From Pseudomonadota bacterium (GTDB lineage: Bacteria > Pseudomonadota > Alphaproteobacteria > Reyranellales > Reyranellaceae), in the NCBI GenBank assembly GCA_018240695.1, contig JAFEFH010000005.1, forward strand, positions 1 to 64,000: a DNA stretch of 64,000 nucleotides, given 5' to 3'. Numbering within the stretch: the stretch's first letter is position 1; each line of letters starts with the position of its first letter. The notes beneath the pieces were generated by a model. It saw nothing but the letters and a program-made list of their open reading frames with translations, did not search any database and had not been told where the DNA came from. The position numbers and the translations under genes are program-made. This document shows positions 36,281 through 54,863 of this stretch, piece after piece.

Positions 36281-36291
36281 GGCGGGTCTCC

Positions 36292-36723
36292 TCAGCCGAT
36301 CGCGGCGTTGGTGAGCGAAATGTTGGCGACGTGAGACGACAGCATGTGCGCGAGCTCGGCATAGAGTTCCTCGTCGCGCACGCGCGGCACCATCTCGCGC
36401 AGCTTGCGCACGACCCACCCCTGGCCGCGGTTGAGGAACACCAGACGCTCGCGCAGGTCCTCGATCGCCATCGCCTTTTCATGGAAGGCGCCCATGCGCG
36501 GCGACGCCTGGCCGCCCGCCCGCGCAATCTGGCCCAGCAGCATGGCGCACCAACGCGCCTCGTCGTGCCTGATATCCTCGAGCAGTCTCACCAGCGGTCC
36601 GGCCGGCGCCTGCCGCGCGCTGTCGAGCGCCACGCGCGCACCGGCGCGCTCGGCTTCGAGAAGCTCGTTGAGGAAATCGATGATTTCCCCGCTGCTGGCA
36701 TCACCCGTGTCGATCACGGGCAA
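36292..36723 (-). CDS. Conserved all-helical protein, ferritin-like (DUF6306-like)
   Basis: The 143-residue soluble protein looks all-helical: IIDFLNELLEAERAGARVAL, LLEDIRHDEARWCAMLLGQI, AIEDLRERLVFLNRGQGW and ELYAELAHMLSSHVANI. The spacing of Glu and His (ExxxA...DEARW...) recalls ferritin-like four-helix bundles, and I believe similar proteins are filed under DUF6306, but I am not certain. The start is a TTG at 36723 with GGAGAG 8 bases upstream; GTG 36717 is an alternative. It is divergent from the LysR gene. Confidence 0.68.
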   Translation of the reverse strand: MPVIDTGDASSGEIIDFLNELLEAERAGARVALDSARQAPAGPLVRLLEDIRHDEARWCAMLLGQIARAGGQASPRMGAFHEKAMAIEDLRERLVFLNRGQGWVVRKLREMVPRVRDEELYAELAHMLSSHVANISLTNAAIG

Positions 36724-36784
36724 AGGCTATTCTCTCCGTTTGAATTTGAAAAACGAAGAAATTACGTCGATGATATCGGAAAGA

Positions 36785-36796
36785 TCGATTTATCGA
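36785..36796. promoter_or_regulatory. Inverted repeat TCGAT-TT-ATCGA in the divergent LysR promoter region
   Basis: The repeat lies 8 bases before the LysR ATG in an 81-base A/T-rich gap between two divergent genes. LysR regulators usually control themselves and a divergent or neighbouring gene through such dyads, but the repeat is short, so this is tentative. Confidence 0.3.
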
Positions 36797-36804
36797 GATC
36801 TGCC

Positions 36805-37668: not shown

Positions 37669-37693
37669 ATCTCTCACGTTTCAGGAACCCATC

Positions 37694-38650: not shown

Positions 38651-38663
38651 TAGGACAGCGCAC

Positions 38664-39635: not shown

Positions 39636-39656
39636 GGGCGTCCCGACGATCGGCGA

Positions 39657-40178
39657 CTACTCTTTCAGAAGGATGTCCACGGCCTGCTGATAGGCGACTT
39701 GGGCACGTTCCTTCAGTTCCGGCAGCGTGCAGCTGCCGATCGGGTGCTCAACCTTGACGACCGGGTAGTCCGGCAAGCCGAGCACGCGGGCGATGTTGCG
39801 CACGGTCACCTCGAAGGGCGTCGTGCAGATGGCCACGGCACGCTTGCCGAGTTTCTCGAAGCTGATGCTGTCGTGCAGACTGCACGTTGAGCAGCTTCCT
39901 CAATCCCCCAGGCCGGTGATGAGGAAATCCACCTCCTGCGCCAGCTGGGTCAGCGTGAGCGCCGGTGCGGGCGCGCTCGCGTTCTTCTTCGAGGCGAGCT
40001 TGTGGATGGTGCAGTTGTGGCGCTCGACGAAGATCTGGGCGACCTCGTTCAGCATCTCCTCGGCGTTGAGCTTGCCGTTCTCGAGGACCCCGATGCGCAG
40101 GCCGTCGAGGCTCTTCAGTGGCGCGGCGCGGGACGCCTTGCGCTTGGGCGTCGTCGACATCGGGGAATAGAGCTGCAT
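39657..40178 (-). CDS. UGSC-type selenoprotein, in-frame UGA read as selenocysteine
   Basis: Reading through one TGA (39900-39902) gives a 173-residue protein. The first 92 residues (RIGVLENGKLNAEEMLNEVA, EVDFLITGLGD) look like a small alpha/beta domain. Then come Sec93-G-S-C96-S-T-C99, the middle (FEKLGKRAVAICTTPFEVTV) and a second IGSC motif (Cys150) before the stop TAG at 39657. Both halves are in the same frame with no indel. The U-G-S-C motif is what I recall as the UGSC (seleno)protein family, a redox-type motif of unknown function. A bacterial SECIS-like hairpin lies directly downstream of the UGA (separate entry). ATG 40178 has AGGAGG upstream and starts 12 bases after the 359-aa gene. 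No selA, selB, selD or tRNA-Sec was seen in the window. Ordinary annotation would stop at residue 92 and lose the active motif. Confidence 0.85.
39858..39902 (-). promoter_or_regulatory. SECIS-like hairpin directly after the UGA codon
   Basis: After UGA the RNA has a 7-bp outer stem (GAAGCUG/CAGCUUC) and an apical hairpin GUGCA-GUC-UGCAC at 39873-39885. E. coli fdhF, as I remember it, has GGUUGCAGGUCUGCACC at the same place: in both genes codons 7-9 after UGA read (A/G)GU CUG CAC. The exposed GU in the loop is what SelB binds. This supports selenocysteine insertion rather than a nonsense mutation. Confidence 0.75.
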
Positions 40179-40190
40179 GGGCGGAGCCTC

Positions 40191-41270
40191 CTACTGCTTG
40201 TTGACGGGGGGGGGCGTGATCGCCCGATGCTGGAAAATCGACCCGCGTCCCCGGCTCCAGGACGGGATGAAGCACGAGTGGCCGCCGGCATCGCCGCCGC
40301 CCATCGTCACCAGGATGTCGCTGGGCTGAAGGCCGCGATGCATGAAGCCGTCGACCGTGAGCGCATGCCGCTGCTCGCCGTGCTGGCTGTCATACTCGCG
40401 GTCGCGATACTTTCCGGCGCTCTTCATGCCGTCGACTGAGCGCTTGGCCGCGACGAACAGATAGTCCTGCACCTTCTCGCGCGACCAGCCGGCGGTCGCG
40501 ATCACCTTCATATGCTCGGGCGCCAGCACCACGACGGCCTGGCCCAGGGTGATGCAGCCGAGATTCGCCATCGAGTCGGCGACCGACGTCAGCACTTCCT
40601 CGGGCGTGTTGCCGCCGTGATTCTCGACGTTGAAGAAGCCGCCGCCCGCGAAGCAGGTGACGCTCGAGGTACCGGCGGGATAGCCCTGCGCTTCGCAAAG
40701 CAGCGGCCACGGATTGCCCCGCGCGCGCTCGGCGATGCAGAAGCTGTACTTGCCGGGATTGCCCTGGGTCGACTTGTCGGAGATGCCCGGCAGCATCTGG
40801 AAGACGTTGCGCAGGATCAGCCGCACGGCGCGGCCGATCGTGCCGTTCGCGCGGTTGCCCGGCCCGAACAGGTTCACGTCGGCGTTCATGCCGATCTCGT
40901 CGGCATAGGCGCCGCTGACGATGAGCAGCGGCGCCGAGCCGCCGGTACTGGCGGTCGAGCCGTGGAAGTTGAAGTCCGGACGGTCCATCGCCTCGAAGGC
41001 CGCGACGACCACCGGGAAATAGGACGACTGGCAGCCCGCCATCACGGCATTGACGGCCGCGGCATGCAGCGAAAGATCGAGGCCGGTGGCGGGATGATGC
41101 GCGATCACGGTCTCGGGCGGCCGCGCATCGGCCTTCAGCATGGCGTCGACCCGTTCGACGACCGGCGGTACGACGGGCAAGCCGTCGGTCCAGCCCTGCT
41201 CGTAGCACCAGTCGATCGCCGCCAGGAGATCGTCGGGAACGTCGTGGATTTTCGGTTTGAGAGCGGCCAT
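40191..41270 (-). CDS. Conserved protein of unknown function encoded next to the UGSC selenoprotein
   Basis: The 359-residue soluble protein starts LKPKIHDVPDDLLAAIDWCY and contains WTDGLPVVPPVVERV, NAVMAGCQSSYFPVVVAAFE, HGSTASTGGSAPLLIVSGAY and, near the end, GGGDAGGHSCFIPSWSRG. Conserved-looking Cys residues occur in three of these segments. I do not recognise a named family or fold. I chose ATG 41270 (AGGA nine bases upstream) over 41276. It sits 19 bases after the TctC gene and 12 before the selenoprotein, so the three are probably co-transcribed and may share a pathway. Confidence 0.75.
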   Translation of the reverse strand: MAALKPKIHDVPDDLLAAIDWCYEQGWTDGLPVVPPVVERVDAMLKADARPPETVIAHHPATGLDLSLHAAAVNAVMAGCQSSYFPVVVAAFEAMDRPDFNFHGSTASTGGSAPLLIVSGAYADEIGMNADVNLFGPGNRANGTIGRAVRLILRNVFQMLPGISDKSTQGNPGKYSFCIAERARGNPWPLLCEAQGYPAGTSSVTCFAGGGFFNVENHGGNTPEEVLTSVADSMANLGCITLGQAVVVLAPEHMKVIATAGWSREKVQDYLFVAAKRSVDGMKSAGKYRDREYDSQHGEQRHALTVDGFMHRGLQPSDILVTMGGGDAGGHSCFIPSWSRGRGSIFQHRAITPPPVNKQ

Positions 41271-41289
41271 GGGCATATCCTGCGGCTTC

Positions 41290-42276
41290 CTATTCCACCC
41301 TGGCGCCTACGCTCTCGACGAGCTTGCGCCATTTCACGAGCTCGCCCGGCAGCATAGCACCGAACACGGGCCCCGGCAGGAAATCGACATCCGAACCGAC
41401 GCTCTCGAGCTGCTCGCGGAACACCGGATCCTTGAGGGCATTGGTCATGGCGCCGACGATCGCCTTCTCGACCTCGGGCGGCGTGCCCGCCGGCGCGACG
41501 ATGCCCAGCCAGCCTTCGAGCGCGAAGCCGTTGGGCAGCGCCTCGAGCAGGGTCGGCGTGTCCGGCAGAAGACGCGAGCGCTTCGAGCCGGTGCTTGCGA
41601 GCGCACGCAGCGACTTCTGCTGCACCTGCCCCAATGCGGTATCGAAGGTCGGGAAGCCGACCTGCACCTGGTCAGACAGCAGCGCCCGCACGATCTCGGG
41701 CGCGCCTTTATAGGGGACGTGGACGTAGTCGATGCCGGTGGCCTGCCGGAAAGCCTCGGCCGACAGATGCGCCGGACTGCCCGCGCCGCCCGAGCCGAAG
41801 TTGAGCTTGCCGGGATTGGCCTTGGCCAGCGCCACGAACTCGGCGACCGTCTTGGCCGGGCTGCTGGCCGGCACGACCATCATCGATCCACCACGCACGA
41901 CGAGGCAGATCGGCGTGAAATCCTTCAGCACATCGTAAGTGAGCTTCGAATAGAGCGCCGGATTGATGACGTGGCTGTTGGCCATCATCATCAGCGTATA
42001 GCCGTCGGGCGTCGAGCGGGCCGCCGCTTCGGCGCCGATGTTGCCGGCCGCGCCGCCGCGATTCTCGACGACGAACTGTTGCTTCAGCTCCTGGGTCAGG
42101 CGCTGCGCCACGCGGCGGGCCGTGGTGTCGGGCGAACCGCCCGCGGTGAACGGCACGATGAGGCGCACAGGCCGGTCCGGATATTCGGCCGCGGCAGGGA
42201 AAGCCGAGCCGCCGAGCAACAGGGCGCCGCAGAGAAGGCGCATCGCGAGAAGCTTCCGTATCTTGGTCCGCGCCAT
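41290..42276 (-). CDS. Tripartite tricarboxylate transporter substrate-binding protein (TctC/Bug family)
   Basis: The 328-residue periplasmic binding protein has a signal peptide ([17 protein letters not shown], cut before EYPDRP) and Bug-family signatures: VRLIVPFTAGGSPDTTAR, VVENRGGAAGNIG, DGYTLMMM and DYVHVPYKGAPE. ATG 42276 is preceded by GGAGG. No TctA/TctB membrane genes are nearby. In this cluster it may bind the carboxylate handled by the downstream 359-aa protein and selenoprotein; that is inference from position. Confidence 0.93.
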   Translation of the reverse strand: MARTKIRKLLAMRLLCGALLLGGSAFPAAAEYPDRPVRLIVPFTAGGSPDTTARRVAQRLTQELKQQFVVENRGGAAGNIGAEAAARSTPDGYTLMMMANSHVINPALYSKLTYDVLKDFTPICLVVRGGSMMVVPASSPAKTVAEFVALAKANPGKLNFGSGGAGSPAHLSAEAFRQATGIDYVHVPYKGAPEIVRALLSDQVQVGFPTFDTALGQVQQKSLRALASTGSKRSRLLPDTPTLLEALPNGFALEGWLGIVAPAGTPPEVEKAIVGAMTNALKDPVFREQLESVGSDVDFLPGPVFGAMLPGELVKWRKLVESVGARVE

Positions 42277-42375
42277 CCCTTCCTCCATTTTCACCATTGT
42301 GGCAGTCGGAGAGGGGCACGACACCCTTGCGTCGTGCATGGGTCATAGCCTTCAGGCATGGCCCCCAGTCTGTCG

Positions 42376-43275
42376 TCAGCGACGCGGTTTGCGCCGCATC
42401 GCGGCGCGCGCGAAGCCCGCGATCTTCTTCACGATCGGCGAACGCCAACGCGCCTCGGTCGTGAGCATCCAGCACTCGTAGCCGATCTCGACGCGCAGCG
42501 GCAGTTCCACCAGGGTGCCGTCGCGCAGTTCCTGCTCGAAGACGAACCGCGGACCGCAGGCCACGAAGTCCGACTCGAGCGGCTGCACCTTCACCAGGGA
42601 ATAGTCGTCCGAGACGAAGGCGTTCATGTTGCGCGCCGCCTTGCCGACCGGAGCGCCCACCCATTTGCGGAAGGCGGGCACGGCGCCGACACTGGCAATG
42701 GGATAGGTCAGCAGCTGTTCCGGCGAGAGCGGCGCATGGCGCAGTGCCGGATGGCGCGGCCGCACGACGGCGATGCGCCGGTCGTCGTGGATCTTCACGC
42801 GGATGAAGTCGGAGAATTCGTCCGGCCCCTCGAAGTAGCAGAAGACGAGGTCGAGGCTGCCGACGCCCAAAGCGCGCAACAGGACGGGGATCGAATCCTG
42901 ACGGGCCTCGAGTTGCAGGTTGGGATAGGCGCGCCCGACCTCGCGCACGACGTCCGGCAGCAACTTGACCCGCGTCGCCGGGCCCGCGCCGATGCGCAGC
43001 ATGCCCGACTCGCCGCGCGCGATCTGCTCGAGTTCCGCTTGCAGGCGCGAAGCGCCGGCCAGCAGGCTCGCGCCATGCTCCGCCACGAGGCGACCGTAGA
43101 CGTTGGGCCGCGCCTTGCCGCCTTCGCGCTCGAACAGCTTGACGCCGAGGTCCTTCTCGAGCCGCGCGATGCTCTTGCTCAGCGTCGGCTGGGAGATGCG
43201 CAGGCGCTTGGCGGCGCCGGTGAAACTGCCGGACCCGCAGACCGCGACGAGTTGCTCAATCTGCTTCAGGTCCAT
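42376..43275 (-). CDS. LysR-family transcriptional regulator
   Basis: The 299-residue regulator has the N-terminal winged helix LVAVCGSGSFTGAAKRLRIS and QPTLSKSIARLEKDLGVKLF, and an effector domain starting SGMLRIGAGPATRVKLLPDV. It is in the same direction as its neighbours, 18 bases after the DUF3604-like gene and 99 bases before the TctC gene; this last gap is large enough for a promoter. It probably responds to the compound used by the cluster. Confidence 0.92.
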   Translation of the reverse strand: MDLKQIEQLVAVCGSGSFTGAAKRLRISQPTLSKSIARLEKDLGVKLFEREGGKARPNVYGRLVAEHGASLLAGASRLQAELEQIARGESGMLRIGAGPATRVKLLPDVVREVGRAYPNLQLEARQDSIPVLLRALGVGSLDLVFCYFEGPDEFSDFIRVKIHDDRRIAVVRPRHPALRHAPLSPEQLLTYPIASVGAVPAFRKWVGAPVGKAARNMNAFVSDDYSLVKVQPLESDFVACGPRFVFEQELRDGTLVELPLRVEIGYECWMLTTEARWRSPIVKKIAGFARAAMRRKPRR

Positions 43276-43293
43276 CCGCGCATCCCGCCAGGC

Positions 43294-45537
43294 TCAGCGG
43301 AAGACGTAGATCGGGCTCGACCAGATGAGATGACCGTCTTCCTGGGTCACGCAAACATAGAGCGCATTGTCGCCCTTGTCCTTCAGCGCGATCCGGCGGC
43401 TGAGCTTGGCCGTGCGATGCGGGTTCTCGTCGGGCAGGCGGAAGATGCGGATGCGCCGGCGGATGCCGCCCGCCTCGAACACCAGATCGTCGCGGCCGAT
43501 ATCGGCGATCGCGATGTCGCATTTCACCAGCGCGGTATCGATCTTGAGGCGGCCCTTCTTCGGATCGGCCAGCAGCGCGTCGAAGCCGCCGAAACCGCCG
43601 GTGGTGAGCGCCGTCCAGGCGAGCGTGCCCGGCGCGGTCTGCTCGATCTTCTTGTCGAGGTTCCACATGTTGAGCGGCGTCACGCGCTCGAAGCTGTTGC
43701 CGTCGAGCGTGCAGCCGCCGTCCCAGATCGTCTGCCGGCCGCGGCCGCGATATTCCGAGCCTTCCCAGATCACGCGGATGCGGCGGCCGAGGGCCGCGTC
43801 GTCATAGGGACGCCAGGTCTCGAGCAGGTCGAGGCCGTTGCGGATCTCGATGCGCTCGATCGGCGCCGAGGCGTGCGCCTCGATGTCGAACGTCACTTCC
43901 TTGTCCGACGACTGGAGGATGTCGCCCATCATCGCCGTGCGCGCGGGCGCGTGGGTCGCGGGTCCGACGCCGGGATCGCTGCTGTAGAGCTTTGCATCGG
44001 CGGCGAAGGTCGCCCGCGTGTCGAGCACCATGCGGCAGCCGGTCGTGGCGTAGTGGTGACGCTTGCGCAGCGCATCGAACAGGCCGGCGCGCGTCAGTTC
44101 CGGCGCCAGCAGGCACGACAGGCCGCCATAGGCGCCGAACATCGAGGCGCCGGGATGGCTCGCGCCATGGCGGCCCTTGTGGCCGTCGGAGTTGGCGAGG
44201 ATGCCGATGCGATAGCCCTGCTCCAGCGCGTCCTGCACCAGCCACTCGAACGTGCCCCAGTCGGAATGGACCTCGACCGCGCGCTCGATCCGCGCGTCGT
44301 GCGCCATCTTGATGTCGGCATAGCGGCCGCCGATATGCGCGAACACCACGCAGTCCTCGTCCTTCAGCGCCTTGAACAGCCCCTCGGCACTGTTGGAGTC
44401 GCTCCACACGTCGCTGGTGTCGTCGATCAGCGCGTGGCTCGAGCGATGGATCTGCCTTCCCTCGTGCATGAACATCACGTTGCGGTCGCCGCCCAGCCCG
44501 GTGTTGCCCGACCATTCGTAGCCCGGGAAAATGACGAAGCCGCCGTCCTTGTTGTACTCGGCCGTCAGCTTGTTCAGCTCCTCCCAGAACGGCGTCGTGA
44601 TCTGGAAGTCGTTGCCCTGGTGGCTCATGCCGTCGAGGAAGGCGCGATCGCGGGCGAACTCGATCAGCTCGCGCGCCGAGTTGGTGCCGATCGTCTCCTC
44701 CGACTGGCCGTGCAGGTCGCACCAATAGGATTTGAGCGGCAGGTTGTTGGCGACGCGCAGCGGGTTGCTGCGGCAGAGCACCCTGCCGTCCGCGCCGATC
44801 ACCTCGATCAGAAGATCGCCGGGCGCCGCGACCGACAGTCCCTCGATCGACTTGGCATGCTCGCCGCGCTTCATCGTGAAGGTCGACGGCAGGCCCGCGA
44901 CCGGCATGTTGGCGCGCAGCGTGAAGGTGCCTTCGACCTGGTCGCTGGGATTGCCCCACTTGTCCTCGCCCTTGAAGCCCAGGCGGAAGGACTCGCCGCA
45001 GGCCCGCGCCGTCGGCAGCAGCGCCTTCCACAGCACGGCGGGGCCGGCCACGACGGGGAAATGCGGCTGCTTCGGCAGCTCGACATAGTTGTAGGTGGCG
45101 AAGGGATCGGCCAGCACGCGGAACTCGAAGGTCGGCTCGACGAAGGTCTGCATGCGCATGCCGGGCGAACCCTGGCGGCGGTCGCCGAAGCGCACGGTGA
45201 GCGTGTCGCCCTCGTTCAGGAAGCCGCGGATCACGCGGATGAACAGCGTCTTGTCCCACGGGCGGATGTTCATCTTGGGCTCGAAGCGCACGTCGAGCAG
45301 CGCGCCGTTCGAGGCCTCGACGGTCGTATAGTTGGCGGCCTTCGGATCGGTGAACTGCGGCTTGCCCATGTCGCCCGCGAAGCGCTGCACGACCTTGATC
45401 GAGCCCGTATCGTCGATGCCGAAATAGCCCGCCGTGTAGACCAGCGTGAAGGACTGGAAGCTGCCCGCCTCGACCGGATCGGTCGGCGACAGCGTGGCGG
45501 TGCCCATGCGCTCGGGCAGGTAGGTCGAATGCGGCAT
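43294..45537 (-). CDS. DUF3604-like protein with a PHP-type metallohydrolase region
   Basis: The 747-residue protein has an N-terminal beta-rich half and a central part with SYWCDLHGQSEETIGTNSA, FLDGMSHQGNDFQIT, VIFPGYEWSGNTGLGGDRN and YRIGILANSDGHKGRHGA. The His/Asp spacing (DLHGQ..., SDGHKG) recalls PHP-domain phosphoesterases and DUF3604 proteins. No signal peptide is visible. The ATG at 45537 has GGAAGA upstream. It is the first gene of the minus-strand cluster, divergent from the GntR gene. Substrate and reaction are unknown to me. Confidence 0.75.
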   Translation of the reverse strand: MPHSTYLPERMGTATLSPTDPVEAGSFQSFTLVYTAGYFGIDDTGSIKVVQRFAGDMGKPQFTDPKAANYTTVEASNGALLDVRFEPKMNIRPWDKTLFIRVIRGFLNEGDTLTVRFGDRRQGSPGMRMQTFVEPTFEFRVLADPFATYNYVELPKQPHFPVVAGPAVLWKALLPTARACGESFRLGFKGEDKWGNPSDQVEGTFTLRANMPVAGLPSTFTMKRGEHAKSIEGLSVAAPGDLLIEVIGADGRVLCRSNPLRVANNLPLKSYWCDLHGQSEETIGTNSARELIEFARDRAFLDGMSHQGNDFQITTPFWEELNKLTAEYNKDGGFVIFPGYEWSGNTGLGGDRNVMFMHEGRQIHRSSHALIDDTSDVWSDSNSAEGLFKALKDEDCVVFAHIGGRYADIKMAHDARIERAVEVHSDWGTFEWLVQDALEQGYRIGILANSDGHKGRHGASHPGASMFGAYGGLSCLLAPELTRAGLFDALRKRHHYATTGCRMVLDTRATFAADAKLYSSDPGVGPATHAPARTAMMGDILQSSDKEVTFDIEAHASAPIERIEIRNGLDLLETWRPYDDAALGRRIRVIWEGSEYRGRGRQTIWDGGCTLDGNSFERVTPLNMWNLDKKIEQTAPGTLAWTALTTGGFGGFDALLADPKKGRLKIDTALVKCDIAIADIGRDDLVFEAGGIRRRIRIFRLPDENPHRTAKLSRRIALKDKGDNALYVCVTQEDGHLIWSSPIYVFR

Positions 45538-45585
45538 GTGAATGTCTTCCGGAAAATCTGGACTCGCCCGCGGGCGCTCAAGTTG

Positions 45586-45602
45586 TATTATGACGTCTTA
45601 TT
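45586..45602. promoter_or_regulatory. Candidate GntR operator with dyad around GACGTC
   Basis: TATTATGACGTCTTATT lies in the gap between the divergent DUF3604-like and GntR genes. The core GACGTC is a perfect palindrome with imperfect TAT/TTA arms, and TATTAT could be a -10 element. It is a plausible self-regulatory site, supported by position only. Confidence 0.35.
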
Positions 45603-45619
45603 CGGGCGGGGAGCAAGGC

Positions 45620-46417
45620 GTGGGGGGACGCAAGGCGAGAGCGCTGCCGTGGATCAGGCCGGAGCGGAACAGCCCGGTGTCGATGCAGGCACAGATCGCA
45701 GGCTGGCTGGAGCAGCTGATCGGTGCCGGCCGGCTCGGCGCGGGCGACCGGCTGCCGTCGGAAGCGATCCTCGTCCAGCGGCTGGGCGTCAGCCGCGTCA
45801 CCGTGCGGCTGGCGATCGATGAGCTGGTGGCGCGCGGGTTAGTGGCACGCGCGCACGGCAAGGGAAGCTTCGTCACCTCGCCCGTCGTGCAGCACGACAT
45901 CCTTTCCGACCAGGCCTTCTTCGACATCGTGCTCGCCAAGGCCCCGCAGCCGGAGGTGCGGCTGCTGGCGTTCGCGCCTGCCGTGCCGCCGGCCAAGATC
46001 GCAGCCTTGTTCGGACTCGGCGCCGGCCAGAAGGCCGTGCGTCTCGAGCGCCTCTCTCTTTCGGCTGGCCGGCCCGTCGTGTTCTCGGAAAGCTGGCTGA
46101 CACCTGATGCCGCCCATCTCTCACGCGACGACATCGCCGACATGTCGACGGCCGCCGTGCACAGCGTATTGCTGCGTCATCCGATCGCCTCGTCGACCAA
46201 CGCCATCGGCGCGGAGCTCGCGGGCGCGACCGTGGCACGGCGGCTCGGCGTCGGCGCCCGCAGCGCCGTGCTGGTGCTGGCGCGCACGCGCTTCGACGCG
46301 CAGGGCCGGGTGCGCGAGCACAATCGCTTCACGGTCGATCCGTCGGCCTACGAGTTCACGTTCTCGGCCAAGGGCAACGTGCCCACGGCCGCCATGGTGA
46401 GGGCCGTCGCGGCCTGA
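45620..46417 (+). CDS. GntR-family (HutC type) transcriptional regulator
   Basis: The 265-residue regulator has a GntR winged helix (AGDRLPSEAILVQRLGVSRV, TVRLAIDELVARGLVARAHG, then KGSFVT) and a C-terminal UTRA ligand domain (AVRLERLSLSAGRPVVFSES, ending in REHNRFTVDPSAYEF). I chose GTG 45620 because GGGGAG lies 8 bases upstream; ATG 45590 is in frame but has no ribosome-binding site. It starts a plus-strand unit with a TctC protein (gap 11 bases) and a ComA-like enzyme. Confidence 0.9.
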   Translation: MGGRKARALPWIRPERNSPVSMQAQIAGWLEQLIGAGRLGAGDRLPSEAILVQRLGVSRVTVRLAIDELVARGLVARAHGKGSFVTSPVVQHDILSDQAFFDIVLAKAPQPEVRLLAFAPAVPPAKIAALFGLGAGQKAVRLERLSLSAGRPVVFSESWLTPDAAHLSRDDIADMSTAAVHSVLLRHPIASSTNAIGAELAGATVARRLGVGARSAVLVLARTRFDAQGRVREHNRFTVDPSAYEFTFSAKGNVPTAAMVRAVAA

Positions 46418-46428
46418 GGGAGACGCCA

Positions 46429-47403
46429 ATGCGCTTTGTCAAACTGTTCGCGGTGCTCTTGTCCGCCCTGTCGATCGCGGGATCCAACGCGGCGGCGCAA
46501 TCCAATCCGTCGAAGACGATCTCGCTGGTCGTGCCCTTCGCCCCCGGCGGCGGCCACGACAGCATGGCGCGCATCCTCGCCCAGCAGCTCACGACCGAAC
46601 TCGGCCAGCAGGTCATCGTCGAGAACAAGCCGGGCGCCAACGGCATGCTGGGCGCTGACCTGGTCGCGCGCGCCAAGCCCGACGGGCTGACGATCCTGTT
46701 CGCCTCGCCCGCCGAGATCGTGATCGCGCCGACGGTCTACAAGTCGATGCGCTACGATCCGTTCAAGGACCTGATGCCCGTGACCCTGGCCGGCACGACG
46801 CCGATCGCCATCGTCGCCAATCCGTCGGTCGGCGTGCACACGCTGGCCGAGCTGATCGCCAAGGCCAAGAGCGACAAGGACGGCCTCGCCTACGGCACGC
46901 CGGGCGAAGGCAGCTCGCAGCATCTCGCGGGCGCCTGGCTGTCGCAGATCACCGGCGCCAAGCTCGTGCACGTGCCCTACAAGGGCGCCGGGCCAGCGAC
47001 CAACGACGTCGTCGCCGGCCACATCCCGCTCGCCATCGTCGGCATGGCGCCGGTGCTGCCGTTCATCAAGAGCGGCAAGCTGATCGCCGTCGCCGTCACC
47101 TCGCACGACCGCGTCATGTGGGCCAAGGACGTGCCGACGGTCGCCGAAGCGCCCGGCCTCGCGGGGTTCGAGGCCTGGCACTGGGAAGGCGTAATGGTGC
47201 CGGCCGGCACCCCCGCGGACGTCGTGAAGCGTCTGCAGGCGGGCTTCGCCGCCGTGCTGAAGATGCCCGCGGTGCGCGCGCAGCTTCAGGAACTCGGCAT
47301 CGATCCGGTGGGCAGCACGACCGCCGAGTTCACCGCTTTCCTCGCCGCCGACCGCGACCGCTTCGCCAAGATGTTCGGCTACACGGGCCTCAAGCCGGAA
47401 TAG
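46429..47403 (+). CDS. Tripartite tricarboxylate transporter substrate-binding protein (TctC/Bug family)
   Basis: The 324-residue periplasmic protein has a signal peptide (FAVLLSALSIAGSNAAAQ) and Bug signatures: ISLVVPFAPGGGHDSMAR, VIVENKPGANGMLGAD and KLVHVPYKGAGPATNDVVAG. It lies 11 bases after the GntR gene and 4 bases before the ComA-like gene, so all three are probably one unit. The ligand is unknown; a carboxylate or sulfonated carboxylate would suit the next gene. Confidence 0.93.
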   Translation: MRFVKLFAVLLSALSIAGSNAAAQSNPSKTISLVVPFAPGGGHDSMARILAQQLTTELGQQVIVENKPGANGMLGADLVARAKPDGLTILFASPAEIVIAPTVYKSMRYDPFKDLMPVTLAGTTPIAIVANPSVGVHTLAELIAKAKSDKDGLAYGTPGEGSSQHLAGAWLSQITGAKLVHVPYKGAGPATNDVVAGHIPLAIVGMAPVLPFIKSGKLIAVAVTSHDRVMWAKDVPTVAEAPGLAGFEAWHWEGVMVPAGTPADVVKRLQAGFAAVLKMPAVRAQLQELGIDPVGSTTAEFTAFLAADRDRFAKMFGYTGLKPE

Positions 47404-47407
47404 GACC

Positions 47408-48211
47408 ATGACGATGTCGAACGACCTGCCCTTCGGCTTCGTGCCGATCGATCCGCGCCGCAGCCTGCAGAAGCCGCGCACCACCGGCCTCACCATGGTG
47501 ATCGACGACGGCCTGCCGCTGCCCTACATGCGCGGCGTGCTGGAGATGGCCGCGCCCTACATCGACCTGATGAAGATCAAGACCGGCACCGCCCGCCTCT
47601 ATCCGCGCGCCAAGCTGGTCGAGAAGCTCGCTTTGTACGAGAGCTTCGGCATCCAGCCGTTCCTCGGCGGCCAGTTCCACGAATATGTCTTCGACACCAT
47701 GGGCGAGGCGGCGCTGCCGAAGTTCTACGCCGAGTCGCGCGCGCTGGGCTTCCGCACGATCGAGATCTCCGACAACACCGTGCCGCTCACCAACGAGCAG
47801 CGCCGCAGCCAGATCAAGGCGGCGATCGCGAGCGGCCTGAACGTGTTCGGCGAAGTGGGCTCGAAGGAGACGCTGAGCAATCCCGGCCTGCTGATCGAGC
47901 AGGCCGAGATCTGCCTCGAGGCCGGCTCCAGCCTCGTGCTCGTCGAGGCGGCCGAACTGGTGGAGGACGGGCGCGTGCGCAAGGAGAGCCTCGACGTCAT
48001 CAAGCGCGGCATCCCCGCCGACAAGGTGATGATCGAGCTGCCCGGCCCCTGGATCTCCGGCGTGCGGAGCTGCGACATCGAGGAGATGAAGAAGATCCTG
48101 TTCGCGGAGTTCGGTCCGGACGTGAACATCGCCAACGTCGCGGTCACGACGATCTACGACACCGAGGCGCAGCGGGTCGGCCTCGGCACCGGCGGACCGC
48201 TTCACAGCTGA
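47408..48211 (+). CDS. Phosphosulfolactate synthase (ComA) family protein
   Basis: The 267-residue TIM-barrel protein matches the ComA family, whose archetype adds sulfite to phosphoenolpyruvate in coenzyme M synthesis. Recognisable parts are TGLTMVIDDGLPLPYMRGVL, YIDLMKIKTGTARLYP, FGIQPFLGGQFHEYVFD and TIEISDNTVPLT. Bacterial and plant homologues often have other or unknown roles. The position after a GntR regulator and a binding protein suggests use of an imported organic acid rather than coenzyme M synthesis. Confidence 0.85.
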   Translation: MTMSNDLPFGFVPIDPRRSLQKPRTTGLTMVIDDGLPLPYMRGVLEMAAPYIDLMKIKTGTARLYPRAKLVEKLALYESFGIQPFLGGQFHEYVFDTMGEAALPKFYAESRALGFRTIEISDNTVPLTNEQRRSQIKAAIASGLNVFGEVGSKETLSNPGLLIEQAEICLEAGSSLVLVEAAELVEDGRVRKESLDVIKRGIPADKVMIELPGPWISGVRSCDIEEMKKILFAEFGPDVNIANVAVTTIYDTEAQRVGLGTGGPLHS

Positions 48212-48223
48212 GGCCACCATGCC

Positions 48224-48238
48224 GTGCACAATGTGCAC
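48224..48238. promoter_or_regulatory. Perfect palindrome GTGCACA-A-TGTGCAC, candidate IclR operator
   Basis: Seven-base arms around one base, in the 80-base gap before the IclR gene and 13 bases after the ComA-like stop. IclR regulators commonly bind palindromes in their own promoters. A TTGACG at 48256-48261 downstream could be a -35 element. Confidence 0.55.
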
Positions 48239-48291
48239 AGGCGAGGTCCCTGCGATTGACGGCCTGAGCTCCGCTTAGTACCTGCCCAGGG

Positions 48292-49122
48292 ATGGCGCCG
48301 GCCATCCGGGATGGGCATATCGTGAACAGCATTCTTCGTCCGGACGAGACCGAGGCCCGCAAGGGCACGCAGAGCCTGCAGCGCGCCATCGCGCTGCTGC
48401 GCGAAGTGACGGCATGCGGCAGCGAAGGGCTCAGCGCCGCCGAGATGGCGGCGCGCGCCTCGATCGACCGCACGACCGCCCACCGTATGGCCCGCAGCCT
48501 GGCGGCCGAGGGGCTGTTCGACTATTCGCGCGAAACGCGCCGCTATTTCCTGGGGCCGCTCGCCTACGAGATCGGCCTTGCGGCCAGCGAGCGCGCCGAC
48601 CTCGCCAAGCTCTGCGCCACGCCGATGAAGCGCATCGCCGAGGAGACCGGCGACACGGTCTTCCTGATGCTGCGGTCGGGCGACGACGCCGTGTGCGTGG
48701 CGCGCACGGAAGGCTCCTACCCGGTCAAGACCTTCGTCGTGGACGTGGGCGTGCGCCGGCCGCTCGGTGTCGGCGCCGGGAGTCTTGCGATCTTCAGCGC
48801 CCTGCCGCTCGAGGAGCGCGAGGTGCTGCTGAAGCGCAATGCGGCGCGGCTCGCGCAGTATCCCGGCATGACGGTCGCGAAGATCCGCGCCCGCGCCGCC
48901 GCCTCGCGCGGCCGCGACCAGGCCGTGGGCGATGTGGTCGACGTTCCCAACGTCCGTGCCGCGGGCGTGGTGATCCGCACGCCGGGCGGACGTCCGGTCG
49001 CCTCGCTCAGCATCTCGGCGATCGCGCCGCGCTTCGCCAACAGGCGGGAGGCCAAGCTGCTGGCGATCCTGCACCGCGAGGCCGAGGCGCTGCGCAAGAC
49101 CATCGGCCGCACGATCGCCTAG
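48292..49122 (+). CDS. IclR-family transcriptional regulator
   Basis: The 276-residue regulator has an N-terminal winged helix (TQSLQRAIALLREVTACGSE, MAARASIDRTTAHRMARSLA) and an IclR effector domain (KRIAEETGDTVFLMLRSGDD, LGVGAGSLAIFSALPLEERE). GTG 48322 is an alternative start. It is followed 19 bases later by a TctC gene and a SnoaL-like gene, which it may control with itself through the palindrome at 48224. Confidence 0.92.
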   Translation: MAPAIRDGHIVNSILRPDETEARKGTQSLQRAIALLREVTACGSEGLSAAEMAARASIDRTTAHRMARSLAAEGLFDYSRETRRYFLGPLAYEIGLAASERADLAKLCATPMKRIAEETGDTVFLMLRSGDDAVCVARTEGSYPVKTFVVDVGVRRPLGVGAGSLAIFSALPLEEREVLLKRNAARLAQYPGMTVAKIRARAAASRGRDQAVGDVVDVPNVRAAGVVIRTPGGRPVASLSISAIAPRFANRREAKLLAILHREAEALRKTIGRTIA

Positions 49123-49141
49123 ACATGAAAAGGAGACATCG

Positions 49142-50104
49142 ATGAAGACCACACGCATCGGTCTCGTCCTGCTGGCCGCGGCACTCTGTGTCGCCACGGT
49201 CCAGTCGGCGCTGGCCCAGTCCTATCCCAACAAGCTCATCCGCTTCGTCGTGCCGTATTCGCCCGGCACCTCGCCCGACATCGTCGCGCGCCTCCTCGCC
49301 GAGGAGATGTCGAAGACGCTGGGCCAGCCGATCATCGTGGAGAACCGCGGCGGCGCCGACGGCGCCATCGGCATGGAATATGTGCTGCACCAGCCGGCCG
49401 ACGGTTACACCGTGCTGTCGGGCATCACGTCCAACCTCGCGATCCTGCCGCTGACCGCCAAGAACCTGCGCTTCGACCCGCTCAAGGACCTGCCGCCGGT
49501 GATCGGCGCCGTCGAGGGCCGCTATGTCTTCCTGTCGCCCGCCGCCGTGCCGTGGAACAGCTTCGAGGAGCTGGTCGCCCATGCCAAGGCGCATCCCGAC
49601 AAGCTGAACTCCGGCTCGCCCACGCCGCAGGTGCGCATGTCGAACCAGGAACTGTTCCGCGGGCTCGGCGTGTCGATCACCGACATTCCCTACAGCTCGG
49701 GCGGCCCCTACGGCACCGCGCTGCTGGCGAACGAGGTGCAGATGGGATTCATCTCGACCTCGTCGGCGATCTCGTTCGGCGCGCGCGTCAAGATCCTGGC
49801 GGTGACCGGCGAGACGCGGCGTCCGCCGTTCAACAACGTGCCGACGCTCAAGGAACTCGGCCGTCCCGACCTGCCGGGCCTCAGCTTCACGCTCAACGTC
49901 GCCGCCGGCACGCCCGCGCCCGTCGTGGCGACCCTGCACGATGCCGCCGCCAAGGCGCTGGCCCTGCCCGCCCTGCGCAAGCGCTTCGAGGACCAGGGCT
50001 TCGACGTGCTCGCCGAGAGTGCCGAGGACGCCACGCGGCGCCTCGCCGACCAGTCGCGTTTCTTCAGCGATGCCGCCAAGCGCGCCGGCATCAAGCCCGA
50101 GTAA
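49142..50104 (+). CDS. Tripartite tricarboxylate transporter substrate-binding protein (TctC/Bug family)
   Basis: The 320-residue periplasmic protein has a signal peptide (VLLAAALCVATVQSALAQ) and Bug motifs: LIRFVVPYSPGTSPDIVAR, PIIVENRGGADGAIGM and DIPYSSGGPYGTALLANEVQ. It is the third member of this family within 9 kb. It is flanked by the IclR gene and a SnoaL-like gene in one unit, again without TctA/TctB genes. Confidence 0.92.
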   Translation: MKTTRIGLVLLAAALCVATVQSALAQSYPNKLIRFVVPYSPGTSPDIVARLLAEEMSKTLGQPIIVENRGGADGAIGMEYVLHQPADGYTVLSGITSNLAILPLTAKNLRFDPLKDLPPVIGAVEGRYVFLSPAAVPWNSFEELVAHAKAHPDKLNSGSPTPQVRMSNQELFRGLGVSITDIPYSSGGPYGTALLANEVQMGFISTSSAISFGARVKILAVTGETRRPPFNNVPTLKELGRPDLPGLSFTLNVAAGTPAPVVATLHDAAAKALALPALRKRFEDQGFDVLAESAEDATRRLADQSRFFSDAAKRAGIKPE

Positions 50105-50124
50105 CGAGTAACAGGAGTACGACC

Positions 50125-50553
50125 GTGCCGCTCAGCCTCGAAGACCAGTTCGCCATCCAGAGATTGATGAACCGCTACGCCTACGCCATCGACGTCGACT
50201 GCACCGAGGAGGAGTTCGTCGACCTCTTCACCGAGGACGCGCAGATGCTCAGCCCCTATAGCGGCGTCCACGAGGGCGTCGAGGGCGTGAAGCTGTTCCG
50301 CAGCAAGTTCGTCCCGCGGCGCGGCAAGCTCCAGATCCGCCACGTCATCACCAACTTCCTGATCGATGGCGACGGCGACACGGCGCACCTCAAGGCCTAC
50401 TTCCTCGAGTTCAAGACCCAGCTCGACGTGCCGGCCAACACCGAGCGCAAGACCGAGTTCTTCTTCGGCGGCAGCTACGACTGCGACATCCGCCGCGTCG
50501 GCGGCAAATGGAAGATGAAGCGGCGCACGGTGCACATCGACCATCTGTCCTGA
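50125..50553 (+). CDS. SnoaL-like / NTF2-fold protein
   Basis: The 142-residue protein starts at GTG 50125 with AGGAG 8 bases upstream. It has the SnoaL_4-type pattern: FAIQRLMNRYAYAIDVDCTE, FVDLFTEDAQMLSPYSGVHE and RHVITNFLIDGDGDTAHLKA. Members often act as small dehydratases, isomerases or hydroxylating subunits. Its stop lies 5 bases before a degenerate piece of a tRNA-Leu gene. Confidence 0.86.
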   Translation: MPLSLEDQFAIQRLMNRYAYAIDVDCTEEEFVDLFTEDAQMLSPYSGVHEGVEGVKLFRSKFVPRRGKLQIRHVITNFLIDGDGDTAHLKAYFLEFKTQLDVPANTERKTEFFFGGSYDCDIRRVGGKWKMKRRTVHIDHLS

Positions 50554-50558
50554 GAGAG

Positions 50559-50603
50559 GGTGCCCCCGGCCGGACTCGACCCAACGCTTCCCTGAGGCAA
50601 AAC
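50559..50603 (-). repeat. Degenerate copy of the 3' part of tRNA-Leu (att-like direct repeat)
   Basis: About 40 bases match the 3' end of the intact tRNA-Leu gene at 53144-53188 in the same orientation, with 4 substitutions in the first 39 bases. It covers the CCA end, the acceptor 3' strand, the T arm and part of the variable arm; the rest of the tRNA is absent. This is the usual mark of integration at a tRNA 3' end. Confidence 0.75.
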
Positions 50604-50644
50604 GTCCCCGCATCCAGCCACTCGTCGAACGGCGCTTGAGCCCA

Positions 50645-50672
50645 CGCGTCCAGAATGCGTTCATTGGACGCG
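50645..50672. promoter_or_regulatory. Inverted repeat CGCGTCCA...TGGACGCG upstream of the binding-protein gene
   Basis: Perfect 8-base arms, with an inner GAA/TTC that extends the stem around a TGCG loop. It lies ~70 bases before the start at 50743, inside the putative island. It may be an operator or a leader hairpin; no T run follows. Confidence 0.45.
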
Positions 50673-50742
50673 CAACAGAATGCTGGGCTTTCGCATTGTT
50701 TCAGGGAACGATTGCGGGTCGATCGGCATAGTGGGGTTGGCG

Positions 50743-52641
50743 ATGAAAAGACGTCTTCTGATACAGGCGCCACTGTTTGGCTTGTTGACGGCGCCGGCCC
50801 TTGCCAAAGATCCGCTGCCGTCAATGCAGGAGACGCCAAATCTGGCGGATCGGGTGAAGTCGGGTGCACTGCCACCGGTCGACAAGCGCATTCCCCGCCA
50901 ACCCCGGATCATCGATCATTTCGCAGGCGGCGAAGAAGGCGGCAAGCACGGTGGCCAGCTCAACATGCTGGTCTCGGGCGCCCGCGATACCCGCCTGATG
51001 ACCGTCTACAGCTACACCCGCCTCATCGTCTACGATGAGAAGTTCACGCTTCATCCCGACATCCTCGAAAGCTTCGAGGTCAAGGAGGGCCGCGAGTTCA
51101 CCCTGAAGCTGCGGGCCGGCCACAAATGGTCGGATGGCCATCCCTTCACCACCGCGGACTTCCGCTTTTTCTGGGAAGACATCGCCAACAACGCCGAGCT
51201 GTCGCCTTCCGGACCTTCCGTGGAGCTCACGGTCGACGGCAAGCCCCCGATTGTCGAGATCATCGATGAGCTGACGATCCGCTACACCTGGGACAAGCCC
51301 AATCCCCATTTCATCGAGAGCCAGGCGCGTGCCGCCCCGCTCTTCCTATTCCGGCCGGCGCACTATCTCAAGACGGTCCATGGCAAATATACGCCGGAAG
51401 AGGAAATCCTGAAGGTCCACAAGGGCAGCCGTTGGGCCAACGCCTTCCGGCGCGCGGATGCGATGTACGGCAACAGCAACGTCGACATGCCGACGCTCAA
51501 CCCGTGGGTCCTCACCACGGTCCCGCCGGCCAGTCGCTTCGTCTTCGTGCGCAATCCCTACTTCCACCGCATCGACCGCAAGGGGCAACAGCTGCCCTAC
51601 ATCGACGAGGTGATCATGACCGTGGTGGCGGCCAACCTGATTGCCGCCAAAGCGGGCCTGGGCGAGGCGAATCTGCAGTCGCGCTATCTCAAGATGCGCG
51701 ACTACACCTTCCTGCGGAAGAGCTCCAAGAAATCGGGAGTCAGGGTCTATCTCTGGGTATCCGGTTCCTGTTCGCAGCTCGCGCTCTACCCGAACCTGAA
51801 CGCGAGCGACGAGGAATGGCGCACGCTGATGCGCGACGTCCGGTTCCGCCGGGCGCTTTCTCTGGCGGTCGATCGCGAGGACATCAACCAGTCCATCTAC
51901 CTCGGCCTGGCCAAGCCCTCCAACAACACGGTCATGACACTCTCGGAGCTGTTCAAGCCGGAGTATGCGACCAAGTGGGCGACATATGATCCAAAGCAGG
52001 CGAACGAGCTTCTCGATCAGGTCGGCCTGAGCAAGCGTGGCGCCGACGATATCCGCCTCCTCCCCAGCGGGCGGCGGGCGAGCATCGTCGTCGAGCTGTC
52101 GAGCGAGGAAACGGAAGACACCGATGTCCTGACGTTGATCGCCGAGCAGTGGAAGAAGGTCGGCATCAAGTTGCTGACCAAGCCGCAAAGCCTCGAGAAT
52201 TTCCGGCTGAGGGCCTTCTCGGGCGAAGCGATCATGACCGCCTATGCCGGGTACGTGACGGCCGTGCCGACAGTAGACACTTCCCCCCGGGAGTTCGCGC
52301 CGACCATGCAGGGTGGCCTCCAGTGGTCCCGATGGGGCATGTACGTGGAATCCAAGGGCCGGCAGGGCGAACAATGCAACATGCCTTCGGCCTGCAAGCT
52401 GATGGATTACTTGAAGGAATGGGAGAACTCGACCGACGCAACGGCGCGCCGCAAGGCCTGGGAGGAAATCCTCAGCGCCAATGCCAACGAGGTCTACTCG
52501 ATCGGCACCGTCAACGGCATTCGCCAGCCCGTCGTCGTCGGACCGAACGTCCACAACGTCCCGAAAGAAGGGTATCACGCCTGGGATCCGGGCGGATACA
52601 TCGGGCTCTACCAGCCCGACACGTTCTGGATGAGTTCGTAG
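50743..52641 (+). CDS. ABC transporter substrate-binding protein, family 5 (peptide/nickel type)
   Basis: The 632-residue periplasmic protein has a signal peptide (RRLLIQAPLFGLLTAPALA). SBP_bac_5 features follow: YDEKFTLHPDILESFEVKEG, FTLKLRAGHKWSDGHPFTTA, DFRFFWEDI, FRRALSLAVDREDINQSIYL and LIAEQWKKVGIKL. It is a lone binding protein without permease or ATPase genes nearby. It sits between the two tRNA-Leu repeats. I chose ATG 50743 for the signal peptide; the frame is open to 50680. Confidence 0.9.
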   Translation: MKRRLLIQAPLFGLLTAPALAKDPLPSMQETPNLADRVKSGALPPVDKRIPRQPRIIDHFAGGEEGGKHGGQLNMLVSGARDTRLMTVYSYTRLIVYDEKFTLHPDILESFEVKEGREFTLKLRAGHKWSDGHPFTTADFRFFWEDIANNAELSPSGPSVELTVDGKPPIVEIIDELTIRYTWDKPNPHFIESQARAAPLFLFRPAHYLKTVHGKYTPEEEILKVHKGSRWANAFRRADAMYGNSNVDMPTLNPWVLTTVPPASRFVFVRNPYFHRIDRKGQQLPYIDEVIMTVVAANLIAAKAGLGEANLQSRYLKMRDYTFLRKSSKKSGVRVYLWVSGSCSQLALYPNLNASDEEWRTLMRDVRFRRALSLAVDREDINQSIYLGLAKPSNNTVMTLSELFKPEYATKWATYDPKQANELLDQVGLSKRGADDIRLLPSGRRASIVVELSSEETEDTDVLTLIAEQWKKVGIKLLTKPQSLENFRLRAFSGEAIMTAYAGYVTAVPTVDTSPREFAPTMQGGLQWSRWGMYVESKGRQGEQCNMPSACKLMDYLKEWENSTDATARRKAWEEILSANANEVYSIGTVNGIRQPVVVGPNVHNVPKEGYHAWDPGGYIGLYQPDTFWMSS

Positions 52642-52662
52642 AACCGTCCCGCAACCGACACA

Positions 52663-52685
52663 CGGCGCGCCCTGCTGGCGCGCCG
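52663..52685. terminator. Perfect 9-bp hairpin between convergent genes
   Basis: CGGCGCGCC and GGCGCGCCG pair around a 5-base loop, 21 bases after the binding-protein stop and 31 before the end of the convergent gene. There is no T run, so it may work only as a weak bidirectional terminator. Confidence 0.5.
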
Positions 52686-52716
52686 CGTCGATGGCCCCGC
52701 AGCGGCGAAGCAGCGA

Positions 52717-53085
52717 CTACTTTTTCGTGAGCTTGCCTTCGAAAAGGCAGTAGCCGTCGAGCATGATCGTCGAGTCGCCCTCCTTGAGGGATCCGACCAC
52801 GTCCATCTTGTTGCCACCGCCGACGATGGCCGTCGTCTTGAACTTCATGTCGGGGCCCAACGTCGCTTTGAAGTTCCGCTCCGTGCGGCCTTCCTGGAGG
52901 AAGCGACCCTCCACATTCGTGCCGTCGACCTTGACGTCGATGGTCATCTTGTATGTCGGGCACTTGCCGCTTCCGGGAACGTTCTCACCAAATCCCGTCC
53001 ACGTGAAATTGGCCTGCTCGGCGAGCGCCGGTCCGGCAACAGCAATGAGGGTGGCTAGCGTGGCGACGGCTAATTCTTTCGGCAT
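52717..53085 (-). CDS. Small exported protein of unknown function
   Basis: The 122-residue protein has a clear signal peptide (PKELAVATLATLIAVAGPAL, cut after ALA). The mature part is beta-rich with two Cys residues (GSGKCPTYKMTIDVKVDGTN and LDGYCLFEGKLTKK), probably disulfide-bonded. ATG 53085 has GAGG 8 bases upstream. It lies in the putative tRNA-Leu island, 58 bases after the tRNA on the same strand. I do not recognise a family. Confidence 0.75.
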   Translation of the reverse strand: MPKELAVATLATLIAVAGPALAEQANFTWTGFGENVPGSGKCPTYKMTIDVKVDGTNVEGRFLQEGRTERNFKATLGPDMKFKTTAIVGGGNKMDVVGSLKEGDSTIMLDGYCLFEGKLTKK

Positions 53086-53143
53086 TGAGATGACCTCACC
53101 AGAAAGATTATGACAAAACGTTGGCCTGCTTGCATTTTGCACG

Positions 53144-53230
53144 TGGTGCCCCCGGTCGGACTCGAACCAACACTTCCGTGAGGAAACCTGATTTTGAGTC
53201 AGGCGCGTCTACCAATTCCGCCACGGGGGC
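53144..53230 (-). tRNA. tRNA-Leu (anticodon CAA)
   Basis: The 87-base gene folds as a class II tRNA with a long variable arm. The acceptor stem is GCCCCCG/CGGGGGC; the anticodon arm CCTGA-CTCAAAA-TCAGG gives anticodon CAA; the T loop is GGTTCGAGTCC; and the 3' CCA is encoded. It reads UUG codons. A degenerate copy of its 3' part lies at 50559. Confidence 0.95.
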
Positions 53231-53318: not shown

Positions 53319-54863
53319 ATGCATCCCTACATCCACGCGCGCAACAATCCCGCCAAACCGGCCTATATCATGGCCGCCAGCGGCGAGACCGTGACCTACG
53401 GCCAGCTCGACGAGCGGTCGAACCGGATCGCCCGACTGTTCCGGTCGCTGGGGCTGAAGGCCGGCGACCATGTCGCGATCTTCATGGAGAACAACGCCCG
53501 GTTCTTCGAGTTCTGCTGGGGCGCCCAGCGCTCGGGCCTGATCTACACCGCGATCAGCTCGCGCCTCACCACCGCCGAGGTCGACTACATCGTGGGCGAC
53601 TGCGGCGCCAAGCTGTTCCTGACCTCGAAGTACCTGGCCGAGCGTGCCGCCGAGCTGGCGCCGCTGATGACGGGCGTGCCCGCCGCCAACCGCTACATGG
53701 TCGACGGCACCATCCCGGGCTATCGCGCCTGGGAGGAGACCGTCGCCGCCCAGCCAGCGGAGCCGATCGCCGACCAGATCATGGGCCGCGACATGCTCTA
53801 TTCGTCGGGCACCACGGGCCGGCCCAAGGGCGTGCTGCCGGTCGGCGAGCCGCAGCCGATCGACGCCGACAACGCGCTGATCCAGATCAACCGCAAGCTC
53901 TACGGGGTGGGCGAGGACACCGTCTATCTCTCGCCGGCGCCGCTCTATCACGCGGCTCCCTTGCGCTTCAACATGACGGTGATGCGGCTCGGCGGCACCT
54001 GCGTGCTGATGGAGAACTTCGACGCCGAGGAGTTCCTGCGCCTGGTCGGCCGCTACAAGGTCACGCACACGCAGCTCGTGCCCACCATGTTCGTGCGCTT
54101 CCTCAAGCTGCCCGACGAAGTGCGGCTGCGCCACGACGTGTCGTCGCTGAAGTGCGCGATCCACGCCGCCGCGCCCTGCCCGATCCCCGTGAAGGAGAAG
54201 ATGATCGCGTGGTGGGGCCCGATCATCTGGGAATATTACGGCGGCACCGAAGGCAACGGCCTCACCATGTGCAACTCCCAGGAATGGATGGCGCACAAGG
54301 GCACGGTCGGCAAGGCAATGGTCGGCACGCTCAAGATCTGCGGCGACGACGGTGCCGAGCTGCCGGCGGGCGAGTCCGGCACGGTCTATTTCGCCGACGG
54401 CAATCCCTTCAAGTATCACAACGACCCGAAGAAGACCGAGGAGTCGCGCCACCCCAAGGGTTGGACGACGCTGGGCGACGTGGGCTACGTCGATGCCGAC
54501 GGCTTCCTGCACCTGACCGACCGCAAGGCGTTCATGATCATCTCGGGCGGCGTGAACATCTACCCGCAGGAAGCCGAGAACCTGCTGATCAACCATCCCA
54601 AGGTGATGGACTGCGCGGTGTTCGGCGTGCCGAACGCCGACTTCGGCGAGGAAGTGAAGGCGGTCGTCCAGCCGCGCGACATGTCCGACGCCGGCCCCGC
54701 GCTCGCCGAGGAGCTGATCGCCTACTGCAAGCAGAACCTCTCGACCATCAAGTGCCCGCGCACCATCGACTTCGAGGCCGAGCTGCCGCGCCATCCGACC
54801 GGCAAGCTCTACAAGCGCCTGCTGCGCGACCGCTACTGGCAGGGCCGTGAAACCAAGATCTGA
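53319..54863 (+). CDS. Acyl-CoA synthetase (AMP-forming ligase)
   Basis: The 514-residue enzyme of the ANL superfamily activates a carboxylic acid with ATP and CoA. Motifs are MLYSSGTTGRPKG (P-loop), YYGGTEGNGLTM, TLGDVGYVDADGFLHLTDRK and the catalytic Lys in PTGKLYKRLL. The substrate is probably a fatty or aromatic acid. ATG 53319 marks the family start; the frame is open further upstream through the tRNA. A quinone reductase-like gene follows 18 bases later. Confidence 0.93.
   Translation: MHPYIHARNNPAKPAYIMAASGETVTYGQLDERSNRIARLFRSLGLKAGDHVAIFMENNARFFEFCWGAQRSGLIYTAISSRLTTAEVDYIVGDCGAKLFLTSKYLAERAAELAPLMTGVPAANRYMVDGTIPGYRAWEETVAAQPAEPIADQIMGRDMLYSSGTTGRPKGVLPVGEPQPIDADNALIQINRKLYGVGEDTVYLSPAPLYHAAPLRFNMTVMRLGGTCVLMENFDAEEFLRLVGRYKVTHTQLVPTMFVRFLKLPDEVRLRHDVSSLKCAIHAAAPCPIPVKEKMIAWWGPIIWEYYGGTEGNGLTMCNSQEWMAHKGTVGKAMVGTLKICGDDGAELPAGESGTVYFADGNPFKYHNDPKKTEESRHPKGWTTLGDVGYVDADGFLHLTDRKAFMIISGGVNIYPQEAENLLINHPKVMDCAVFGVPNADFGEEVKAVVQPRDMSDAGPALAEELIAYCKQNLSTIKCPRTIDFEAELPRHPTGKLYKRLLRDRYWQGRETKI

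Follow-up and report, generated by a model that had tools for sequence, protein, structure and literature searches.

When a tyrosine integrase inserts an element into a tRNA gene, a rebuilt tRNA and a displaced fragment of its end mark the two ends of the resulting island (PMC4383910). For instance, mycobacteriophage Omega targets tRNA-Leu-CAA with a 44-bp core, and the attP of Boilgate, whose core is 43 bp long, differs from its tRNA-Lys target at five positions (PMC10865867). In a literature search, we found no study of genomic islands for Reyranella. Here, we analyse a stretch of 64,000 nucleotides (the window, to which plain coordinates refer) from a draft assembly, in 359 contigs, of a Reyranella (Alphaproteobacteria). 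It contains a short segment between an intact tRNA-Leu(CAA) gene and a degenerate copy of the 3' end of this gene. Like the tRNA islands catalogued by Islander, the locus has an intact tRNA, a same-orientation 3' fragment downstream of it, an island in between and a sporadic occurrence among relatives; unlike these islands (PMC4383910), it carries no integrase gene, its cargo is native and its size, with 2,543 bp separating copy and tRNA, is at the lower limit of the Islander range of 2-200 kb. Because no integrase is present inside the segment, Islander would reject it. The locus shares its tRNA isotype with Omega, resembles those phages whose 42-45 bp common core lies in the 3' half of the tRNA, which is rebuilt, and has as many mismatches between copy and tRNA as the Boilgate attP has against its target; unlike Omega and Boilgate, the segment has no phage genes and is read from sequence only (PMC10865867). 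We read the segment as the probable relic of a tRNA-targeted island that has lost its integrase.

The intact tRNA-Leu(CAA) gene, the putative integration target, is at 53144-53230 on the minus strand (ARAGORN; Rfam tRNA, 59.1 bits), its CCA is gene-encoded at 53144-53146, and all 87 bases are identical in 12 other Reyranella genomes. The displaced copy, also on the minus strand, occupies 50559-50600 and forms the far boundary of the segment. It aligns with 53145-53186 without gaps and plus/plus at 37 of 42 positions (BLAST E 2e-8 within the window), with exactly four substitutions in its first 39 bases. The copy corresponds to bases 2-43 of the tRNA counted from the 3' end; in other words, it is a 3' end fragment that begins at the second base, spans the CCA end, the acceptor strand, the T arm and the variable arm, and ends short of the anticodon arm. 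It lies downstream (3') of the tRNA on the same replicon and strand, and is intergenic, between the stop of a SnoaL-like gene at 50553 (5 bases from the start of the copy) and the start of a solute-binding protein (SBP) gene at 50743, outside conserved protein-coding domains. Because the T loop of the copy has lost T54 (GGTTCGA to GGGTCGA), the copy is not functional. A preliminary description of this DNA had reported the match, its orientation and its four substitutions in the first 39 bases, all of which we find again; the end that it gave, 50603, is slightly generous, the match being secure to 50600.

The sequence of the T arm is conserved among tRNAs, and short resemblances are therefore expected by chance. 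However, the best ungapped 42-base match that the tRNA has elsewhere in the window reaches 37 identities, vs 24 for its reverse complement and only 26-32 for 25 random 87-mers of the window. The resemblance is far above chance. A search of the whole genome with the copy returned no match besides tRNA-Leu(CAA), and we therefore rejected an origin from another tRNA; within the window, no further tRNA copy was found to the left of 50559. An ancestral arrangement with no insertion at all would predict the same gene order in relatives, as the preliminary description had pointed out, and this order is present in none of those searched. Taken together, we consider it extremely improbable that the locus reflects a chance resemblance or an ancestral arrangement.

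The segment holds two genes, as first described. The first encodes a family 5 SBP of 632 aa (50743-52641, plus strand; Pfam SBP_bac_5, PF00496, E 3e-56) with no adjoining transporter genes and with an orthologue on contig C111 of the nearest relative of the window, Umea2_bin-0026 (G001; 83.7% aa identity). The second, convergent with it, encodes a small exported protein of 122 aa (52717-53085, minus strand), which has an apparent signal peptide but matches no family in Pfam, PHROG or NCBIfam. No phage genes remain in the segment, no integrase remnant was found in the window, and searches with PF00589 across the genome and with a profile of the integrase described below found no integrase on the contig of the window, in agreement with the preliminary description. 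The outer neighbour of the copy is the SnoaL-like gene (50125-50553, plus strand; PF13577, E 3e-21), which has a homologue on contig C78 of G001, and the neighbour of the tRNA on the other side is a gene for an AMP-dependent ligase (53319-54863, plus strand). The junctions are sharp: at the left, homology of the SnoaL block to C78 extends to 50554, just short of the first base of the copy (50559); at the right, the SBP block (50661-53107), which is homologous to C111:21441-23789 and its upstream stretch (84%), stops at 53107, an end also seen against G041 and G047, and 4 bp before a 32-bp flank of the tRNA 3' end (53112-53143).

This 32-bp flank, AAAACGTTGGCCTGCTTGCATTTT, is common to other Reyranella tRNA-Leu loci and agrees with their consensus at 22 of 26 positions (0/500 shuffles). 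It is commoner at tRNAs that have remnants of the hotspot integrase next to them (7/15 vs 3/33, Fisher p 0.006, the related genomes not being independent). We considered the flank as a pure signature of the element and rejected this, as it occurs also at loci without integrase remnants; for the same reason it is not decisive.

An artefact of assembly or binning is a formal concern in a draft of 359 contigs. Against this, the cargo groups with G001, as a core gene does, and the copy differs from the tRNA at 5 of 42 positions, so that there is no exact repeat able to join contigs. We regard an artefact as very unlikely.

The tRNA-Leu(CAA) gene is a genus-wide integration hotspot in Reyranella. 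On its 5' side, nearly every relative has the same genes, beginning with the AMP-dependent ligase and followed by a quinone oxidoreductase, a TldD-like protease and further genes. On its 3' side, the genes differ from species to species, with almost none in common. Displaced 3' copies share a contig with the intact tRNA in eight genomes, including G001, Enhydrobacter aerosaccus ATCC 27094 (G011) and Reyranella soli NBRC 108950 (G012) as well as G002, G013, G014, G019 and G024, at distances of 1.8 to 150 kb. Most of these copies break in the anticodon loop (positions 55-61), while that of G024 breaks at 45, near the 43 of the window. A divergent tyrosine integrase, which the Pfam Phage_integrase model misses and PHROG_1 detects (E 8e-13; L092:5596-7140), adjoins the tRNA as a whole, apparently intact gene in E. 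aerosaccus and as fragments in R. massiliensis 521 (G022), G002 and G014. In G001, a short tail of it is next to the tRNA (E 5e-4), and in R. soli and G023 it is found beside displaced copies. Its remnants, in all stages of decay and beside tRNA-Leu or displaced copies, are present in L085, L087, L091, L093, L102, L110 and L081. A second integrase (PF00589) is found beside displaced copies in E. aerosaccus and R. soli. These observations show that elements have made heavy use of tRNA-Leu(CAA) as an integration site in the genus. Two candidates were set aside: a second copy in G010, both of whose contig ends carry the same flank and which is therefore probably one locus broken by assembly, and a split tRNA in G019, which is explained by a stretch of N within it. 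As a separate observation, a similar string, CAATGGGTTAAG, follows displaced fragments of different tRNAs in G013 (L088:5262-5400) and G044 (L228:8640-8740) and may be an arm site for related integrases.

Segments comparable to that of the window, with the same tRNA, the same side and a displaced 3' copy, are present in G019 (2.3 kb, with TctC and MarR genes), G013 (1.8 kb), G024 (8 kb) and R. soli (9.3 kb). The cargo differs in each; R. soli retains integrase genes, while the other three have none beside the tRNA. Sites at the hotspot thus decay to short segments devoid of an integrase, and island finders that require one would miss them.

Based on these data, we suggest that 50559-53143 is probably what is left of an element that integrated site-specifically at the 3' end of tRNA-Leu(CAA). 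In this model, an element whose attachment site bore the 3' end of the tRNA would have recombined with the host gene. The tRNA would have been rebuilt with the copy brought by the element, and the original 3' end of the host would have been displaced to the far side, where it would now be 50559-50600. The integrase and most of the body of the element would have been lost later, leaving a segment that now holds a native gene pair found elsewhere in relatives. A tyrosine integrase like those of the relatives presumably carried out the reaction, and the 2.5 kb between copy and tRNA would be the rest of one integrated unit. The strand, side and extent of the copy and the recurrence of displaced copies at the same tRNA argue for integration, as do the variable 3' side of this tRNA opposite a syntenic 5' side, the integrases beside it in relatives, the sharp junctions and the comparable segments. 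Several observations argue against it. The segment retains neither an integrase nor a phage gene, and its cargo is not foreign; the SnoaL block is also elsewhere in G001, and the copy may accordingly separate two relocated blocks; and the 32-bp flank adjoins the intact tRNA but is missing from the copy, as expected only for a flank that came with the element. The preliminary description had likewise read the locus as a trace of integration into a tRNA gene, and the orientation and side of the copy and the hotspot support it in this; the empty site that it had proposed, with the SnoaL-like gene directly beside tRNA-Leu and 50604-53143 absent, was not found in any genome searched; the SnoaL gene is elsewhere in G001, and no full match to it was seen in the other genomes. 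With no empty site found and the outer flank itself displaced, the extent of the unit and its origin in a single event are tentative. As for age, the 5 differences in 42 positions would, if all are neutral in this lineage, amount to about half the fourfold-site difference between the window and G001, a weak estimate because attachment cores can differ from the start (Boilgate, PMC10865867); the earlier description of the island as old rests partly on these substitutions, and new attachment cores can differ as much.

What does the segment carry? SBP relatives are present in every Reyranella genome searched, often with the 122-aa protein convergent beside them, in contexts that vary: the pair follows a transporter operon in G044, has one shared setting in G005, G024 and G047, and stands alone in G001. 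It is absent from the site beside tRNA-Leu(CAA) in the Reyranella genomes searched. Fourfold-site differences between the window and G001 are 0.217 for the SBP, 0.208 for the SnoaL-like gene, 0.269 for the AMP-dependent ligase and 0.246 for the oxidoreductase, and the SBP tree and the AMP ligase tree each pair the window with G001. The G+C content of the pair is low (61.7%), which could suggest foreign cargo, an idea that we rejected since the pair of G001 is equally low (62.0%). Because its fourfold divergence and trees are those of core genes and its low G+C is common to G001, we conclude from these sequence comparisons that the SBP/small-protein pair is, as far as they tell, native to Reyranella and in a new place, rather than a recent import. 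The word "island", used in the preliminary description, therefore suits the site but does not describe where the cargo came from, as the cargo diverges from G001 at the rate of core genes. More generally, a position between a tRNA and its displaced copy is no proof that a gene is foreign, and caution is warranted before such genes are read as horizontal transfer.

A native, vertically related cargo and a pair that moves freely within the genus would also fit a duplication or rearrangement independent of any integrase that produced the copy and brought the SBP pair beside the tRNA. However, tRNA-targeting integrases leave copies of just this strand, side and extent, and the copy is found at a tRNA where such events recur; we therefore consider such a rearrangement unlikely. 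In G044, a displaced tRNA-Phe 3' half lies at L228:8643-8700, about 1 kb upstream of the SBP/small-protein pair of that genome. We speculate, with considerable doubt, that this native pair is time and again taken up and released by tRNA-targeting elements within one genus, at tRNA-Leu in the window and at the tRNA-Phe 3' half in G044. If so, integration hotspots would reshuffle resident genes in addition to importing foreign ones.

The variable region is larger than the 2.6 kb to which the preliminary description had limited it and reaches left to about 35.3 kb. Two syntenic anchors, 13645-15702 and 34825-35253 (a cold-shock gene), have the same order and orientation on the tRNA contig of G001. 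By contrast, the two genomes share nothing from the second anchor to the tRNA (35254-53111), an interval of 17.9 kb in the window vs 34 kb in G001, and thus the 2.5-kb segment is the part closest to the tRNA of a larger variable region. In G001, one contig carries the SnoaL block, another the SBP pair and a third the tRNA. An exopolysaccharide locus, whose end is near 34.7 kb in the window, is only 4.8 kb from the tRNA in G003. Within the region, positions 39900-50104 hold three TctC-type receptors, a DUF3604 protein, LysR and IclR regulators and a ComA-like enzyme, and some blocks of this stretch occur at unrelated places in G001 and in R. aquatilis KCTC 52223 (G015).

The extent of this region brings in another explanation, in which the copy is the inner junction of at least two stacked islands, the stretch from 35.3 to 53.1 kb is a composite, and 50559-53143 is its innermost piece. 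In favour of such tandem accretion, the whole interval from anchor to tRNA is different in G001, where it is 34 kb long and has its own degenerate tRNA copy 23.6 kb from the tRNA; the SnoaL block and a block at 43.3-48.2 kb are elsewhere in G001 and R. aquatilis; and R. soli has stacked remnants of two integrase types. On the other hand, the window has no second tRNA copy further left, and the anchor is a single cold-shock gene from a multicopy family. We regard accretion as a possible but less probable origin of the locus.

In several relatives, tRNA-Leu(CAA) itself is affected in a different manner. In R. aquatilis, the native gene is broken in the anticodon loop, with its 3' half at L051:1501-1556 and its 5' half at L095:17762-17800. 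The halves have a common 10-bp core, TTTTGAGTCA, are about 21 kb apart, and enclose two tyrosine recombinases and a complete tRNA-Leu(CAA) that is 80% identical (element loci L095:14956-17800, L137:7068-9912 and L051:1501-1556). Here, the host tRNA is split and not rebuilt. In sequence, this arrangement matches the "tRNA-dependent lysogeny" of mycobacteriophages and would place it in an alphaproteobacterium; one of those phages, Gaia, has an 8-bp core and uses tRNA-Leu-CAA (PMC10865867). Five further loci (L123, L134, L135, L146 and L150) have a broken native 5' half and a nearby replacement tRNA. In four of them, the half, beside the AMP-dependent ligase, and the complete replacement tRNA-Leu(CAA) are 0.16-1.5 kb apart (L123:2407-4025, L135:5299-5579, L146:2311-2591 and L150:9601-9881). 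At L134:3120-3436, about 230 bp interrupt the anticodon loop of the replacement tRNA, and the same split is present at L136:5566-5883. For the insert of L134, the group I intron family (RF00028) gives a match with an E of 1.4e-10 and 45.4 bits, just below the gathering threshold of 50; an intron at this place would also disrupt the target of an integrase. Finally, the one tRNA-Leu(CAA) found at this locus in G003 is divergent and of the replacement type (L098 / L130:8140-8226; 97.7% identical to those of L135, L146 and L150). No native half was found there, which would fit a permanent replacement of the host tRNA-Leu(CAA) gene by a tRNA that an element had carried.
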